Origin: a virus
Length of the DNA: 20,496 nt
Direction: 5' to 3' (one strand)
IMG/VR virus record: IMGVR_UViG_3300035698_002091
Coordinates: 1-20,496 of that record
The notes under the pieces were generated by a model. It worked only from the letters and a program-made list of their open reading frames with translations, was not told the DNA's origin and made no database searches. A program made the position numbers and the translations under genes. Below are positions 4,145 through 18,561 of this stretch, piece by piece; within the stretch, counting starts at the first letter, position 1, and the number at the start of each line of letters is the position of its first letter.

Positions 4145-5431
4145 TTATGTTAAATTAGTATCTTGTGCTGTAGTAATACCACTTGCTTTAGCTGCTAACC
4201 ATGTATCTAATACTTCAAGTACTCCCTGATCTGATCCTACACTACCACTATCAAATACATTTATTTTTAACCACATTTCAATCTGGAAACTTTGATTAGT
4301 AACACTTGAATTTAAAGTACCTTTACCTTCTACAAATTGTAAAATCACGTAATCATGTGTATCACCAATTGTTGCATTAAGTTCTGCTCTCGCATACGCT
4401 TTTACATCAGGAGGTGTGTGCATAACTCTTGACCAATAGTCTTCACTTTCTGATTGCACTGCCATTTCATAAGTACCTATTCCTGGGTCTGACGCAGTTC
4501 CAGTAGTAAGAGTATTAGTAGTTGTAGTAGTGAAGTCTCCTTTAAGGAATACATCAAAACTTACAATAGAGTCTTGGAATAACATCTCTTCAAAATATAA
4601 ATCTTTTGCTGTAATTATAATACCCCATTCTGTATTATCATGTATAGCAATAGCTCTTGTTATTACATCTACATTTGCTTCTAATACCGTACCACTATCA
4701 CCCATGTAATGTTGATCTAATGTTAGAATTTTATTAGTTGTATCATTAGCTGTAATTTTATATACTCTATCTTCAATAGCTACATACGCATTAACATCTA
4801 AACCTACACCAGTTGTAGTAGTAGCAAATATTACTTGTTTACTATATTGTACTACTGTAGCATTTCCCCATGAGTTATTAGCAACCGAACTATTAGGGTT
4901 GATTAATCTTTCCATTTTAAGCCATTTATTAGTATTTCTACCATCTGCTATTCTATTACTATATAAAGAAGTTAAACCATCAACTACATCTACTTCATAA
5001 GCGGCTTCTGCCACAACTGTATGAAATATTGGTTTCTCAACCAACAACCCATTAAATGGGTCTACTGGATGAACTCTTTTTTGTAAAACAATACCATAAT
5101 TATTACCTACACTTATGTAATCATTTTCTAAGAAATGCTGTACTGTAGTACCATCATAACCAACAGTTGTTACTTGTTGTATTGGTGCAGTATAAGCATG
5201 TGCTTTATATTGTTTAATTGTAGTTCCTATATTTGTACTAAATAATGTTCTACCATTTCGTCTCACTCCTATCTTAATGTCATCGTTTGTTAATACTGTT
5301 GTTTTATCAAGTACAACGCCTGCACTATTACAAACTGCAAGACAACCATCAGCACTATCTGAAATATTAGCGGCTGCATCTGGTAAAACATTACCTACTG
5401 CAACAAAATTAAAATCGTTTAATCCGTACAT
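4145..5431 (-). CDS. Probable structural virion protein, 428 aa
   Basis: I do not recognise the family. The protein starts MYGLNDFNFVAVGNVLPDAA, is beta-rich and Thr/Val/Asp-rich, has no signal peptide or membrane segment, and has a C-terminal part (about 270-428) with alternating strands ending in a helix near VLEVLDTWLAAKASG. It lies between a probable connector and the fibre genes and is followed by its own terminator, as expected of an abundant virion component. Candidates are a tail or ring component or an auxiliary capsid protein. The ATG at 5431 is preceded by a perfect AT-only palindrome (5433-5450) that overlaps the stop of the gene before it. Confidence 0.5.
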   Translation of the reverse strand: MYGLNDFNFVAVGNVLPDAAANISDSADGCLAVCNSAGVVLDKTTVLTNDDIKIGVRRNGRTLFSTNIGTTIKQYKAHAYTAPIQQVTTVGYDGTTVQHFLENDYISVGNNYGIVLQKRVHPVDPFNGLLVEKPIFHTVVAEAAYEVDVVDGLTSLYSNRIADGRNTNKWLKMERLINPNSSVANNSWGNATVVQYSKQVIFATTTTGVGLDVNAYVAIEDRVYKITANDTTNKILTLDQHYMGDSGTVLEANVDVITRAIAIHDNTEWGIIITAKDLYFEEMLFQDSIVSFDVFLKGDFTTTTTNTLTTGTASDPGIGTYEMAVQSESEDYWSRVMHTPPDVKAYARAELNATIGDTHDYVILQFVEGKGTLNSSVTNQSFQIEMWLKINVFDSGSVGSDQGVLEVLDTWLAAKASGITTAQDTNLT

Positions 5432-12235: not shown

Positions 12236-14407
12236 TTATTTCAATTCATCGAACCAAAATTTAGCATTCACTATGTCGCTGCTTTCCTGAAAGTTAGGTG
12301 TACTCATTATCTCTTTTTCATCTAATAATATCATTACCATTCCTAATGCACTAACCCTATCAAAATTGCCGTCTAAATGCCAGTGTATCATTTCTTCTAA
12401 TATACCTTTACTTTTAATTGTAAATGTATTTGGTATTTCTTCTTTACCATCTTGTTGTCGAAATAACCATGCTTTTACCCTATTTCTTGCATAATCATTA
12501 ATCTTTTTAGAAGCTGTTGTACCTTTCTTTCTGCTTGCTACACTTTTTATTTCTAATTTATCTCTAACATGTTTAGGTTCATCACATAAATATTGTACAC
12601 TATTTGTTGTTATAAAATGTCTATATATACCTTTTAAATTGTTTTCATAATTGATTTCTGCATTATAATATAGTGCTAATCTTCTTGTAGTCTCAAAGAA
12701 CTGATCTTCACTTATTGGTCTCGCTACATATTCAGCTACTATTCTATCTGTCCATGTATCAAATATATAAGTTACACCAAAACTATATTTTTCACCTACT
12801 TCTTTTCTTCCGTATTCAATAGGATCACAACCACCAATATATCTACCATATATACATTCACCTTCTCTTTCTATTATAGCTGGTTTTTCCCACATTACTA
12901 TACAACCTTCTGTAGCTTCATTCATTGGTGTTATTGCTTCTATTGGTAATATGTTACTTGGGGCTTCTTTCCATGTTACTTTATTTCCAGGTTTTAATAC
13001 TAAATGACCTACGTATCTATCTTCATATATCTTTTTATGTGTTTCTAATATACCTAATCGTTCACGTAAATCAGCAACCGGAAATATATTACCTCCTGTT
13101 CTTAATATTGCTTCTTGTATGGTTAATGGTCGTTCTGCACAATTTCTTGCATATTGTGTAGGATCAACACCCGTAGCTTTCCAATTCATTCTTAACTCTA
13201 TCAATTCTGCTTTAGCTTCTACCATATCACTATTGCCATATTTATCCATATAACCTTCCATATTGACATACTGGGGTGCAAAAAATCCTACTCGTTGTTC
13301 TTCACTATTGACATCCCATAAATTTGGCACACTCAATATATTATATCCCTCTGGCTTATAAATCATACTCCTCATTGCTCTAAAACTTGAACCTTCTTCA
13401 CCACCTGTTCCACCTGCTATCATCGTACCAAATACTTGTTTTCTTTTACCTTGTCCTTGTTCAACTGATGGTATAGATATTGTCCATACTTGCTCTCCAT
13501 TATCTAAACTACCAAATTCTTCATAACAAATTAACATACTACGTTTACCTCTTGCTTTATGTGGGTCATCTCTTAAAGATATTGCTGCAATTTCACTTCT
13601 AAAACCCCCTTCTCTTTCTATACCATCTACATCTTTAAATTTATACCCACTTTTAATTTCTTTTATCGTATTAGTAATTTTACGTTTTACAAATGGAGTA
13701 TTTTGATCAGCGAAAGAAATAAGACTTTTAGTCTTAGTCATTAACCCATCACTACCTGTTAAGTACTCATTGCTATTAGCGTATGTTAAACTACGACTGC
13801 GTGGATATATATAATAATCACATGTGCTCATGCCTGCTAATATCCATGAGAAACCAAATCCTCTTTTCTTTAATACAATACAATGACTTTTTAATCTTCT
13901 GGCTTCTTCAATATAATGAAACATATAATAGTGCCCATCCCAGAATGATGGAAATTCATACTCTCTTACTGTCTTTGGTTCTCCATTTTCAATTACATCT
14001 ATATTCCGTTCTATTCTACAGAAATTTAAGAACCAATAATGATAACCTGTAATCCATACATCTCCTGTATGATAACCATATCTACATCGTTTAAATTGTT
14101 CATCCCAAAATCGTTTATATTCACTTCTTGGATGTCTACTTTTTGTAGCCTTTGTATATACTTTATGTTTTTGATAATACATAGCTACTTCTCTAAACTT
14201 ATCTGTATTATATAATCTTACTGTTCCGTTATACCAATTCTTTAATTTATTATCAAATGTAAAATTAGAAGCATGATATATCACATCATTATCATCTATA
14301 TAATTACCACAAAGTATTTTTATATCATTTGATGGTATATTTATTTTATTCTTTAATAATAATTCTTTAGTTCTATCTAATCTTGCTTTTCCTACATCAT
14401 ATTTCAT
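12236..14407 (-). CDS. terL: Terminase large subunit (ATPase-nuclease), 723 aa
   Basis: The packaging motor subunit. A central ATPase domain carries a deviant Walker A KKRGFGFS (180-187), Walker B MLICYEEFG with catalytic acids E296/E297, and a coupling motif around QVFGTMIAGG (325-333). The C-terminal RNase H-like nuclease shows the expected acids D528 (in GGCDPIEYG), E588 (in NYENN) and D683 (in NFDRVSALG). The N-terminal 130 residues are a family-typical extension with several Tyr/Trp residues. The Walker A lacks the usual GKS/GKT lysine; K180 or K181 may serve, as lambda terminase does with KSARVGYSK. It would cut concatemeric DNA and pump it through the portal. The ATG is 2 bases after the stop of the 82-aa gene, indicating tight coupling. 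Confidence 0.9.
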   Translation of the reverse strand: MKYDVGKARLDRTKELLLKNKINIPSNDIKILCGNYIDDNDVIYHASNFTFDNKLKNWYNGTVRLYNTDKFREVAMYYQKHKVYTKATKSRHPRSEYKRFWDEQFKRCRYGYHTGDVWITGYHYWFLNFCRIERNIDVIENGEPKTVREYEFPSFWDGHYYMFHYIEEARRLKSHCIVLKKRGFGFSWILAGMSTCDYYIYPRSRSLTYANSNEYLTGSDGLMTKTKSLISFADQNTPFVKRKITNTIKEIKSGYKFKDVDGIEREGGFRSEIAAISLRDDPHKARGKRSMLICYEEFGSLDNGEQVWTISIPSVEQGQGKRKQVFGTMIAGGTGGEEGSSFRAMRSMIYKPEGYNILSVPNLWDVNSEEQRVGFFAPQYVNMEGYMDKYGNSDMVEAKAELIELRMNWKATGVDPTQYARNCAERPLTIQEAILRTGGNIFPVADLRERLGILETHKKIYEDRYVGHLVLKPGNKVTWKEAPSNILPIEAITPMNEATEGCIVMWEKPAIIEREGECIYGRYIGGCDPIEYGRKEVGEKYSFGVTYIFDTWTDRIVAEYVARPISEDQFFETTRRLALYYNAEINYENNLKGIYRHFITTNSVQYLCDEPKHVRDKLEIKSVASRKKGTTASKKINDYARNRVKAWLFRQQDGKEEIPNTFTIKSKGILEEMIHWHLDGNFDRVSALGMVMILLDEKEIMSTPNFQESSDIVNAKFWFDELK

Positions 14408-14409
14408 AA

Positions 14410-14658
14410 TTAAAATGGTATTTGTAATAAACCAGAAATACTATAAGTTGTACTAACTTTATATTTTTTTACTTTTATTATTGGTTTAATTTCTAATCTT
14501 TTAATAGCATCAATAAATAATAATACTTTCTCTCTTATTATAGGTACATAATAAGGAAGACAACAATCATTAAATACTATACCTAATGTATATTCTGGAG
14601 TACTTAGTTTTCTATTTCCTTTTTGCTTTGTGTATCGAGTAATTTCTATTTTAATCAT
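14410..14658 (-). CDS. Small uncharacterised protein before terminase, 82 aa
   Basis: I do not recognise it. It is basic and beta-rich with a central CCLPYYVPIIREKVLLFIDA helix-like stretch, and is flanked by the 197-aa gene (stop at 14661) and terL (start at 14407) with only 2-base gaps, so it is an operon member and likely real. The location before terL allows a packaging role, but size and sequence do not resemble known small terminases. Confidence 0.5.
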   Translation of the reverse strand: MIKIEITRYTKQKGNRKLSTPEYTLGIVFNDCCLPYYVPIIREKVLLFIDAIKRLEIKPIIKVKKYKVSTTYSISGLLQIPF

Positions 14659-14660
14659 AT

Positions 14661-15254
14661 CTAATTAGTTGGTACATTATCAGGGTCTTCATACATACCT
14701 TCTTCACCACCACCTCGTATGTTTCTTTGCACTCTACGTTTTTCATCAGCTCTCTGTTTATTATCGTCTAATTGCTTTACCATTTTATCTAATTCAGTAA
14801 CAGCTACTGATCTATCTTTTGGTGTGAGTTTTAATTTACCTTGTTTATCTACTTCATTGAATCCTATACTATTTAACATTTCTCTAATATCTTCTATTTG
14901 TTTTTGTGTAAATTCAGCTTGTAAATCATATTCATTTTTTGGATTATACTTTCTATATACTTTAACAGCGTCAATAACTAATGAGTCTATTTTAGGATCA
15001 TACTTTTTAGCTTCCCATAAATGATCCTTTAATACTCTACTTCTCTCATCAAGATTATTAATATCAGCATACCAATTAACACTACTGTCTTTACAACACA
15101 TACCAAATACATAAGTTAATTTTTTACGCGCGTTGGTTTTAGTTTTTGATTTGTCAGTATCCCATATTTGTCTATATCCTTCTATATTTAATAATTCTGG
15201 TCTTATTTCAACTAAAAAATTATCATTGTTTATTTCTTTAAAGAATGTATCCAT
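14661..15254 (-). CDS. Conserved-looking protein upstream of terL, 197 aa
   Basis: It starts MDTFFKEINNDNFLVEIRPE, carries a segment KKLTYVFGMCCKDSSVNWYA (45-64), then helices (about 75-105 and 112-130), and ends in a charged helix (about 145-180) and a Gly/Arg/Glu-rich tail. I associate this kind of gene with the position just before the terminase in crAss-like phages, but know of no assigned function. A DNA-binding or adaptor role, including a small terminase, is a possibility from context only. The ATG shares its A with the stop codon of the upstream exonuclease-like gene (TAATG at 15254), so translation is coupled. Confidence 0.55.
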   Translation of the reverse strand: MDTFFKEINNDNFLVEIRPELLNIEGYRQIWDTDKSKTKTNARKKLTYVFGMCCKDSSVNWYADINNLDERSRVLKDHLWEAKKYDPKIDSLVIDAVKVYRKYNPKNEYDLQAEFTQKQIEDIREMLNSIGFNEVDKQGKLKLTPKDRSVAVTELDKMVKQLDDNKQRADEKRRVQRNIRGGGEEGMYEDPDNVPTN

Positions 15255-16123
15255 TATAATTCATTTATAAAGTCATATAATTTTTTATTCCACTTAGCTC
15301 CAGCTAAAGCATTATGTTCATTAGTTTGTTTTGGATAATCTTCAGTATCTTTTAGGAACTCTAATTTCTCTTCTACTGATAGAATTCTTAATTTTACTTT
15401 TCCATATCCATTAGTTAATTCTACTTTCTTATCTAACTCTTGCTTTAAATCCTTACAATACATAAGAAATCCCTTAGGTAAATCAATCATTCTACCAAAT
15501 AACCAACAGAATACAACCCAATCATAATCTGCATAGTAAGCGTAGAACTCTGTCTGTGGTAAAAACATATTAGGCTTAACTTCATTTAAAGGTAATACTA
15601 CTTTATTATCTTTAGGATTATGTATTCTATTATATTCTACATCATCTAACATTTGTTTTAAATCCTTACGTCTCTCATTTATAAACTCCTTAATCTCCTC
15701 AGCTATCTGTTCTCTTGTCTTGCCGTATTTATTAATCATTAATTTAAGATGTCTATAACTACTAATAACAATATCATATTGATTAAATAAAGTTTTCAAT
15801 ACATTCTCTCTTAACCAATATTCTTTAACTCCATCTACTATACCGTCTTTCCATTGCCAATTATTCCAAGTAGCTCTTATATCAAACTCTTTACATATAG
15901 CGTAGTACTCTTTGTGAGTATCACAGGTATTTAAAAATTTAACTCCATATTTGTCTATACCTTCTTGTTGTTCTTTTGGAGAAATAATAGTTCCTTGTAT
16001 ATCCTCACTAACAATACCTATACTAATTAACTCTATAGTATCAATTGGTTTACGTACATTTAATCCTAATACTTTAGGTTGTTTTTTATATTCGTGAAAT
16101 TTAGTGTCAATAAAATATTTCAT
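15254..16123 (-). CDS. DEDDh 3'-5' exonuclease homologue, catalytic residues partly lost, 289 aa
   Basis: The fold signature is that of the RNase H-like exonucleases related to Rv2179c: strand YFIDTKFHEY (3-12), LISIGIV (32-38), a middle motif YYADYDWVVFCWLFG (196-210, likely D201), CKDL (223-226), and the closing block HNALAGAKWNKKLYDF (270-285). Two expected acids are absent: the D-x-E pair of motif I reads D6-T-K8, and the D-A that normally follows H-x-A-L-x reads G275-A. Both substitutions were read directly in the codons (AAA and GGA). D6, D201 and H270 remain. It is probably weakened or catalytically dead, perhaps now a nucleic-acid-binding protein. An intact reading frame with tight coupling argues against simple decay. 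Confidence 0.65.
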   Translation of the reverse strand: MKYFIDTKFHEYKKQPKVLGLNVRKPIDTIELISIGIVSEDIQGTIISPKEQQEGIDKYGVKFLNTCDTHKEYYAICKEFDIRATWNNWQWKDGIVDGVKEYWLRENVLKTLFNQYDIVISSYRHLKLMINKYGKTREQIAEEIKEFINERRKDLKQMLDDVEYNRIHNPKDNKVVLPLNEVKPNMFLPQTEFYAYYADYDWVVFCWLFGRMIDLPKGFLMYCKDLKQELDKKVELTNGYGKVKLRILSVEEKLEFLKDTEDYPKQTNEHNALAGAKWNKKLYDFINEL

Positions 16124-16440
16124 GGTATTTGTTTTTTATTTGTTATACGTTTTTGTTTACCATTATTAAAAGTGGTTAATACTCTATTAAATGCGTTCTC
16201 AGCAATCGGTACAAAATACCCTAATCTTGCCATTCTTACATTTTTACTTGCATCTCTACTTTTAGTATGTACTATTACTTTAGCAAATTCCTTATAATAT
16301 AATCTTAATATAGCATTAATTTCTTCTTCATTTATATTAAACTCTTTCTTTAATTTATTAACTACCTTTTGTTGTAATCTATTATCTATAAATACTTGTT
16401 TAGTAGATATTTTATCATTTATTATTAATCTTCTATCCAT
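16120..16440 (-). CDS. Small basic DNA-binding-type protein, possibly HU/IHF-like, 106 aa
   Basis: Helices at about 22-32 and 38-57 (EEEINAILRLYYKEFAKVIV) are followed by VRMARLGYFVP (68-78), which resembles the helix-helix-then-G-x-F strand layout of HU/IHF proteins, and by a basic tail (NGKQKRITNKKQ). The beta arms of a normal HU are hard to place and the resemblance is weak. Small IHF-like proteins are encoded next to packaging genes in crAss-like phages, which supports the guess. It overlaps the exonuclease-like gene by 4 bases and the 73-aa gene by 16 bases, so it belongs to the same operon. Confidence 0.45.
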   Translation of the reverse strand: MDRRLIINDKISTKQVFIDNRLQQKVVNKLKKEFNINEEEINAILRLYYKEFAKVIVHTKSRDASKNVRMARLGYFVPIAENAFNRVLTTFNNGKQKRITNKKQIP

Positions 16441-16652: not shown

Positions 16653-17507
16653 TTAAATTAAAGACAGAATGTACTTTTTATTTGGATTATTTTTACTTCT
16701 GTTTACTAATGCTTTTTTTATTTCTTTTCTCATATCTGGTAATTTAGTATATTTACCTCCTCTTATTTCATGTGTACCATTATAATTTAATTTTACTATA
16801 AATATATCTTCTGGTTTAACATTATATTTACCCATTATACTATATGTAGTCATTTGAGCTATTGCTTTATTTTCCCCACTATCTTTAAATTTTGATAATT
16901 CATTTTTACATATATTATATGTTTTGTCTAAACTCTCTTTTGCTTTATAATCACCTATTGCATACCTACCTTTTTCTGTTCTATGTTCAGCTAATATATC
17001 TAATGTGCCTGCTAAATTATATTCTAAAGAAGCTAATCGCTTTTCACTTTCTATTATCTTCCATTCTTTGTTAAATTCTTCCCAAAATCCTAATACTGCT
17101 TTATGATAACCTGTTTTCACTTCTGTTTTTATAAATTCATCAACTGTTCTTTGTCCATATTTGTTATGAATAAATAAACGAGTAGCAAATTCATGGGCAG
17201 ATGTACCATCACAACTTGTACTATTACCTTTACAGTGCCAATCACGTCTTAAATCTATAGCATTTGTAATACCGTATCCTTTACGTGTATTTGCTTTTAT
17301 TACATTATTACTTATAAATATATGTTTATTTTCTTCTGTAAATTTAGGAAATAATTGTGCATCTAAAAATGTAGTAACAGACTGTAATTCTATACCATTT
17401 TTATAATACTTATGTTGTTGTTCATCGAATATTATATCATTACTATTATTAGTAACTTGTGGTATTTGTGTATTTATTGGTTCATTAAATTTATGCGTTA
17501 GTGCCAT
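16653..17507 (-). CDS. PD-(D/E)XK nuclease, RecB/Cas4-like, 284 aa
   Basis: The catalytic set of this superfamily is visible in order: GTSAHEFA (101-108, H105), E155 in IIESEKRL, D170 in AGTLDIL, D186-Y-K188 in AIGDYKAKE, and Q218-x3-Y222 (QMTTY), the RecB/Cas4-type motif IV. Enzymes of this group cut or resect DNA with a divalent metal. In crAss-like phages a PD-(D/E)XK nuclease is a recurring core gene, probably acting in replication, recombination or host DNA breakdown. The start overlaps the DHH gene end by 17 bases. All catalytic residues are present, so it is likely active. Confidence 0.8.
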   Translation of the reverse strand: MALTHKFNEPINTQIPQVTNNSNDIIFDEQQHKYYKNGIELQSVTTFLDAQLFPKFTEENKHIFISNNVIKANTRKGYGITNAIDLRRDWHCKGNSTSCDGTSAHEFATRLFIHNKYGQRTVDEFIKTEVKTGYHKAVLGFWEEFNKEWKIIESEKRLASLEYNLAGTLDILAEHRTEKGRYAIGDYKAKESLDKTYNICKNELSKFKDSGENKAIAQMTTYSIMGKYNVKPEDIFIVKLNYNGTHEIRGGKYTKLPDMRKEIKKALVNRSKNNPNKKYILSLI

Positions 17508-18561
17508 ATTGATTATTTATTATATTTAACATTGTTTCATTATCACATACAAAGCCAGAAGCTCCTTTATGTCCTCCACCACCATATTGTTTAGCTATAA
17601 TACTACAATCTATATTACCATTATCATTATATAAACTCCACATCCATTTACTATCTTTATACCAGAAACATGCAAATCCATCATAACCCTTTTTATGGTA
17701 ATCTATACCAAAGTTAATAGGGTTAAATCTCTCTTGATTTACACATAAGAATTTACATGCTAAATACCTACCTTTAGCATTCATTAAAGTTTCCTTTTCT
17801 AAATTAGGTAATAATACTACATCTACTACTTTTATATTACTCTTACCTATATAAATTTCAAATGCTTTACTATAAGTTTGTTTAGCTTCTGTACAAAGAT
17901 ATTTGTATATAGTTTTACCAGATTTTTGTATTATTTCTAATTCATTATATGATGCTAATGTTCTAATGATGTAACTATAAGCCTCCTCATAATTACTAAT
18001 TATCTGTCTTGCTCCATATTGAAATTCTAATACTTTTTGTTCTTCATCTGTTCCTTTATGACCAAAACAATCATATCTTCCAAGTAGTCTTACTATCTCT
18101 GGCATAGGATTATCAGGAAAGAAATATTGCCATGTTAATTCACAGGCTGCAAATTTAGTATTTCTTAATCCCCAAAATTCACCATGTATATTTTCATTGT
18201 AAATACCATCTTTATATTCTTCAATACTTTGTATTGCTGATTTATGGTGGTCATTCCATATTAATGATTTAGTATATAATAGATCATACATTGTTTCAGG
18301 TGGAAAACTCACATCGCACATGATTACCTTATCATATTCTGATAAGTCTGGTATAGTATCTCCGTAGTCCCAACCTAAGAAGTGTATCGAAGGTAGTAAC
18401 CTATCATTTGGCTTATTTAGTAAATTATCAACCTCTATAAAAATTACATCTATATCTAACAATGTTCCTTCTTTATTATTACTTATCCACCACTTCTTTA
18501 CTATTGCAGCACTCATCCAACCATCTAAATCTCTACTATGATATATACATATTGTATTCAT
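17491..18561 (-). CDS. DHH/DHHA1 family phosphoesterase, 356 aa
   Basis: All metal-binding motifs are present: YHSRDLDG (7-14; H8, D11, D13), D83 in VIMCDVSFP, NDHHKSAI (103-110; the DHH triad 104-106), D164 in GRYDCFG, and the DHHA1 substrate-binding loop YGGGGHKGASGF (326-337). The layout matches NrnA/GdpP-type enzymes, which hydrolyse short oligoribonucleotides, pAp or cyclic dinucleotides, rather than the long RecJ. Soluble and cytoplasmic, with no membrane segment. In a phage it may recycle nanoRNA from mRNA breakdown or remove a signalling nucleotide; the sequence does not say which. It is followed by the PD-(D/E)XK gene with a 17-base overlap. Confidence 0.8.
   Translation of the reverse strand: MNTICIYHSRDLDGWMSAAIVKKWWISNNKEGTLLDIDVIFIEVDNLLNKPNDRLLPSIHFLGWDYGDTIPDLSEYDKVIMCDVSFPPETMYDLLYTKSLIWNDHHKSAIQSIEEYKDGIYNENIHGEFWGLRNTKFAACELTWQYFFPDNPMPEIVRLLGRYDCFGHKGTDEEQKVLEFQYGARQIISNYEEAYSYIIRTLASYNELEIIQKSGKTIYKYLCTEAKQTYSKAFEIYIGKSNIKVVDVVLLPNLEKETLMNAKGRYLACKFLCVNQERFNPINFGIDYHKKGYDGFACFWYKDSKWMWSLYNDNGNIDCSIIAKQYGGGGHKGASGFVCDNETMLNIINNQYGTNA

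Follow-up and report, generated by a model that had tools for sequence, protein, structure and literature searches.

A probable pseudo-exonuclease of the RNase AS type in a phage related to crAss-like phages

A 289-residue phage protein with the predicted fold of the exoribonuclease RNase AS (Rv2179c) carries lysine and glycine in place of two near-invariant catalytic acids. Among the catalytic positions D6, E8, D201, H270 and D275, the window, by which we mean the whole stretch of DNA analyzed (an entire virus record of 20,496 bases, of the IMG/VR kind), encodes K8 and G275 and keeps the other three. The protein is very likely inactive. It is probably a pseudo-exonuclease that keeps nearly the whole of its conserved nucleic-acid pocket and has been retained for binding or as a scaffold.

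On the strength of homology alone, DEDDh exonucleases of phages are routinely labeled “Rnase H” or “DnaQ-like” and taken to be active. By analogy, several exonuclease-related proteins of other organisms may serve as precedents for a pseudo-exonuclease in the window. Caf1/Pop2 of Saccharomyces cerevisiae is a DEDD deadenylase that has lost active-site acids, with SEDQ where DEDD is expected, and is thought to be architectural (PMC4032980); unlike the window protein, it is a eukaryotic deadenylase subunit with known partners. In the fungal Ssd1/Dis3L2 family of 3'-5' exoribonucleases, the active site was lost independently at least four times and an RNA-binding role was kept (PMC8097288), although here, in contrast to the window protein, the fold is that of RNase II and the non-nuclease role is attributed to conserved cold-shock domains. 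Maelstrom has a DnaQ-type (DnaQ-H) fold, and most of its members have lost the DEDHD residues (PMC2628886), but it possesses a new conserved EHHCHC set to which nothing in the window protein is comparable.

The exonuclease gene runs from ATG to TAA without interruption and overlaps the genes on both sides (Table 1), which bears out an initial annotation that had described an intact, coupled frame. The same annotation placed the gene next to terL; it lies near terL, but two small genes (14661-15254 and 14410-14658) intervene. Identities to crAss-like records of ~36% for TerL and ~26% for the major capsid protein (MCP) indicate that the phage is related to the crAss-like phages (Crassvirales). 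The neighboring DHH phosphoesterase and PD-(D/E)XK genes keep their motifs, and so the phage is not without nucleases in general. The window DHH phosphoesterase is 58% identical to the one adjoining the exonuclease in the related contig L001, and it is also found near the exonuclease in L007; nine further contigs that carry close relatives of the DHH gene gave no exonuclease match.

Table 1. Features of the exonuclease locus, in window coordinates
Feature	Position	Strand	Evidence
RNase AS/Rv2179c-like pseudo-exonuclease gene (probable), K8 and G275, 289 aa	15254..16123	-	ORF; phrog_2259, E 4e-38; 4oke model match; alignments
Motif I codons D6-T7-K8, GAC ACT AAA (relatives D-T-E)	16100..16108	-	Sequence; alignments
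D201 codon, motif II (YADYDWVVFCW), retained	15521..15523	-	
Codon 220, Leu (Pro in relatives and RNase AS)	15464..15466	-	Alignments
H270 codon, retained	15314..15316	-	
Codon 275, GGA (Gly); relatives Asp, GAT in L001 and L002	15299..15301	-	
ATGA, 4-nt overlap of upstream 106-aa ORF (16120-16440) with exonuclease start	16120..16123	-	
TAATG, 1-nt overlap of exonuclease stop with start of downstream gene (14661-15254)	15252..15256	-	
Terminase large subunit (terL), crAss-like, third gene downstream	12236..14407	-	phrog_6681, 3e-108; crAss-like TerL matches
PD-(D/E)XK exonuclease-like gene, with D...DxK motif	16653..17507	-	phrog_298, 5e-15; sequence
DHH phosphoesterase (nanoRNase-like), motifs kept	17491..18561	-	phrog_4771, 8e-38; linked to exonuclease in L001, L007

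Motif I of the window protein reads in full D-T-K-F-H-E (GAC ACT AAA TTT CAC GAA), and the closing block reads H-N-A-L-A-G-A-K (CAT AAT GCT TTA GCT GGA GCT AAG). HNALAGA departs from the HxAxxD of DEDDh motif III, and the catalytic set of D6, E8, D201 and D275 with H270 is left incomplete by E8K and D275G. Position 8 is glutamate in all 53 aligned homologues, and position 275 is aspartate in 52 of the 53. In a wider set the counts are 98/100 and 101/102, respectively, and one of the two lysines found there at position 8, that of L049, was rejected as belonging to a misaligned fragment. Across 103 unique family sequences, some of them from a wider search with patterns that cover neither position 8 nor position 275, K8 is found outside the window only in L081, itself retrieved by a pattern search for K, and G275 only in L076. 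Pattern searches for DTKF with a hydrophobic residue after it (L095/L096) and for HNALxGA[KR]W returned only unrelated frames. In Klenow-type DEDD exonucleases, the D and E of motif I and the D of motif III hold metal A. If this assignment carries over, E8 and D275 would hold metal A together with D6, and both of the window's losses would fall on a single metal site. The initial annotation had read a DTK motif I, an HNALAGA block and retained D201 and H270; the codons agree, and alignment with homologues and with RNase AS/Rv2179c, the check that it had proposed, marks E8K and D275G as true outliers.

The Pfam match to PF16473 (Rv2179c-like) is weak (E 0.0085; 16.2 bits, below the cut-off of 27), and the match to phrog_2259 (“Rnase H”) has an E value of 4e-38. 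An AlphaFold2 model of the window protein, built from 54 aligned sequences (pLDDT 86, pTM 0.82), superimposes on RNase AS (4oke) with Z 20.0 and 2.0 A over 158/160 residues, and other DEDDh enzymes reach Z 14 or lower. Structure prediction, also proposed at the outset, thus assigns the protein to the RNase AS (Rv2179c) fold. In addition, the family profile retrieves RNase AS at E 6e-30 and aligns with it in register at D6, E8, E11, the motif II D, P220 and HxALxDA. RNase AS (PF16473; PDB 4oke, 6s0m, 4hec, 4hvj) is a polyadenylate-specific 3'-5' exoribonuclease. Besides the fold, the window protein shares with it D6, E11, D201, H270 and the ELISIG block; it differs in having K for E8, G for D275 and L for P220, and in ~120 extra residues that lie in loops and in an insert helix (~137-168). 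The window family, phrog_2259 of Cellulophaga and other phages, is represented by the ~100 relatives that were collected. Its gene was present as a single copy in 31 of the 31 related contigs searched, so that in these relatives another copy is not available as a substitute. The window record is a fragment, and its genome could carry a second family copy.

The window protein deviates at only 3 of the 36 positions that are conserved in at least 95% of its relatives, namely E8K, P220L and D275G. With the other 33 positions kept and an ordinary substitution rate, it has the properties expected of a pseudonuclease, in which catalytic residues are lost and the rest of the fold is conserved. P220 is kept back to RNase AS and is absent from 2 of 99 proteins, exactly the two that have K8; the chance of such a coincidence is ~2e-4 if the losses are independent, for a pattern that was noticed post hoc. 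This suggests that P220 serves catalysis and was released along with it. Substitution in the window protein has been no faster than in its intact sisters L001, L002 and L005: among the 15 Tajima tests against them, 14 gave values below 3.84 and one a chi-square of 4.3. The dN/dS comparison raised in the initial annotation likewise indicates an ordinary rate, with NG86 estimates of ~0.34 for window-L001 and 0.32 for L001-L002, both of which are intact, but the values are rough, as dS is near saturation (~1 or more).

It is highly improbable that both substitutions are artifacts of sequencing or of the assembly of a metagenomic contig. The window is a single contig for which a second record of the same phage was not found; a DNA-level search of phage records gave no near-identical phage, and a TerL query for near relatives gave one distant locus only. 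However, GAT to GGA takes two base changes, so that a single base error cannot produce D275G, and E to K requires a separate change. The frame is open, P220L is a third outlier, and K8 is also present in a different contig, L081. No NCBI genetic code is known to translate AAA as glutamate or GGA as aspartate. An altered but active enzyme, in which K8 replaces metal A by its charge or another residue, such as E11, rebuilds the site, is quite unlikely. Such a protein would be a one-metal or metal-poor nuclease using D6, D201 and H270, all of which remain. Other nuclease folds offer known cases of a lysine that takes the place of a metal, and K8 recurs in L081, where D275 is kept. In the window, however, D275 is lost too. 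E11, whose occupation of the metal site the initial annotation had named as grounds for abandoning its dead-enzyme reading, sits beside E8 in intact relatives throughout and in RNase AS. Located five residues from D6 on strand 2-14, it should by parity lie on the opposite strand face, away from D6 and E8, and thus looks unlikely as a metal-site substitute. Comparison with the family alignment revealed no new acid near the motifs, the window-specific acids being only those at 117, 138, 150 and 288, all outside the motifs. Moreover, substitution of the motif I pair in Pol I, D355A/E357A, serves as a 3'-exonuclease-minus mutant (PMC6010275). The dead-enzyme reading is well supported: the lost residues are near-invariant, no acid compensates for them, and intact relatives already have E11.

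Recent loss under drift, with catalysis dispensable in the lineage and the gene in early decay with no new role, seems unlikely. It would fit the single window allele and the split copy of phage phi19:3, and contigs with relatives of the DHH gene often have no exonuclease match, which implies that the exonuclease gene can be dispensable. A single complex event from GAT to GGA would also allow for a very short neutral period. Nevertheless, three conserved codons have changed, yet the frame is still open over its 289 codons and 33 other conserved positions are unchanged. Neutral drift of as little as 0.05 substitutions per site would leave the frame open with a probability of ~0.04, and would preserve both the frame and the 33 positions with a probability of ~0.001. 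The ordinary substitution rate also argues against drift.

In the account that we favor, the pseudo-exonuclease would descend from an RNase AS (Rv2179c)-type 3'-5' exonuclease of phages, the fold of which has been kept. Loss of E8 and D275, with lysine replacing E8, would have left the protein unable to cut, and selection would have kept it to bind nucleic acid or to act as a scaffold, with the 3' ends of single-stranded RNA as its probable target. A point against this account is that D6, D201 and H270 are all still present, which might not be expected long after catalysis has ended. An RNA-specific pocket is assumed here from RNase AS, and binding of RNA 3' ends is a better guess than a decoy or DNA-end binding because the closest enzyme of known structure is an RNase. 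The broader proposal of the initial annotation, a retained non-catalytic role, appears reasonably likely in view of the ordinary rate, of conservation that is nearly perfect outside the metal site and P220, and of repeated active-site decay among relatives; the decoy and DNA-end binding that it offered as examples have no specific support.

Judged from the aligned sequences, active-site decay is recurrent in related phages and affects differing residues. The DEDDh set is intact in phrog_2259 members save L081 (K8), L076 (G275), L109 and L110 (H201) and L004 (Y270), and it is not intact in the window. L081 has P220N, deviates at 9 of the 36 conserved positions and keeps the fold (Z 16). A clade of L081 and the window is compatible with a quick 99-row tree (p-AU 0.61) and rejected by a careful 28-row tree (p-AU 0.02), the branch of L081 being long in the trees; E8K is probably independent in the two. 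Active-site losses number 4/20 near the window versus 1/78 elsewhere (Fisher 0.006), to which we give little weight, as the comparison depends on our own counting of events and the window was the starting point of the searches.

A tentative extension is that a second, non-catalytic function predates the losses in one group of crAss-like and related phages, so that catalysis was dropped repeatedly and the protein kept. The separate routes would then be E8K with D275G and P220L, E8K with P220N, and D201H, in parallel to fungal Ssd1/Dis3L2. If a lineage has repeatedly dismantled the active site and still kept the protein, this would show that the family does something other than cut, and would supply natural pairs of dead and live proteins with which to identify that function.

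Several relatives have features of their own. The exonuclease genes of L109 (18-869) and L110 (96-896) are identical over their first 621 nt, including the H201 codon, and then diverge, which points either to intragenic recombination at a conserved block or to chimeric assembly. Their H201 was counted as one event, and the dN/dS between the two, intended to represent an altered active site, was discarded, because a value from a mosaic or chimera is meaningless. In L004 (5001-5759), motif III has Tyr for His (NEYNALSDA); this may be a natural switch of DEDDh to DEDDy, a form in which the protein may be active. The exonuclease of Cellulophaga phage phi19:3 (L049:5001-5836) is split in two frames near residue 150, unlike those of phi18:3 and phi46:3, which are whole. 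L018 was rejected as a case of motif I loss: its DTEF is intact upstream of a hydrophobic, membrane-like insert of ~50 residues (~4790-5000) between exonuclease strands 1 and 2.
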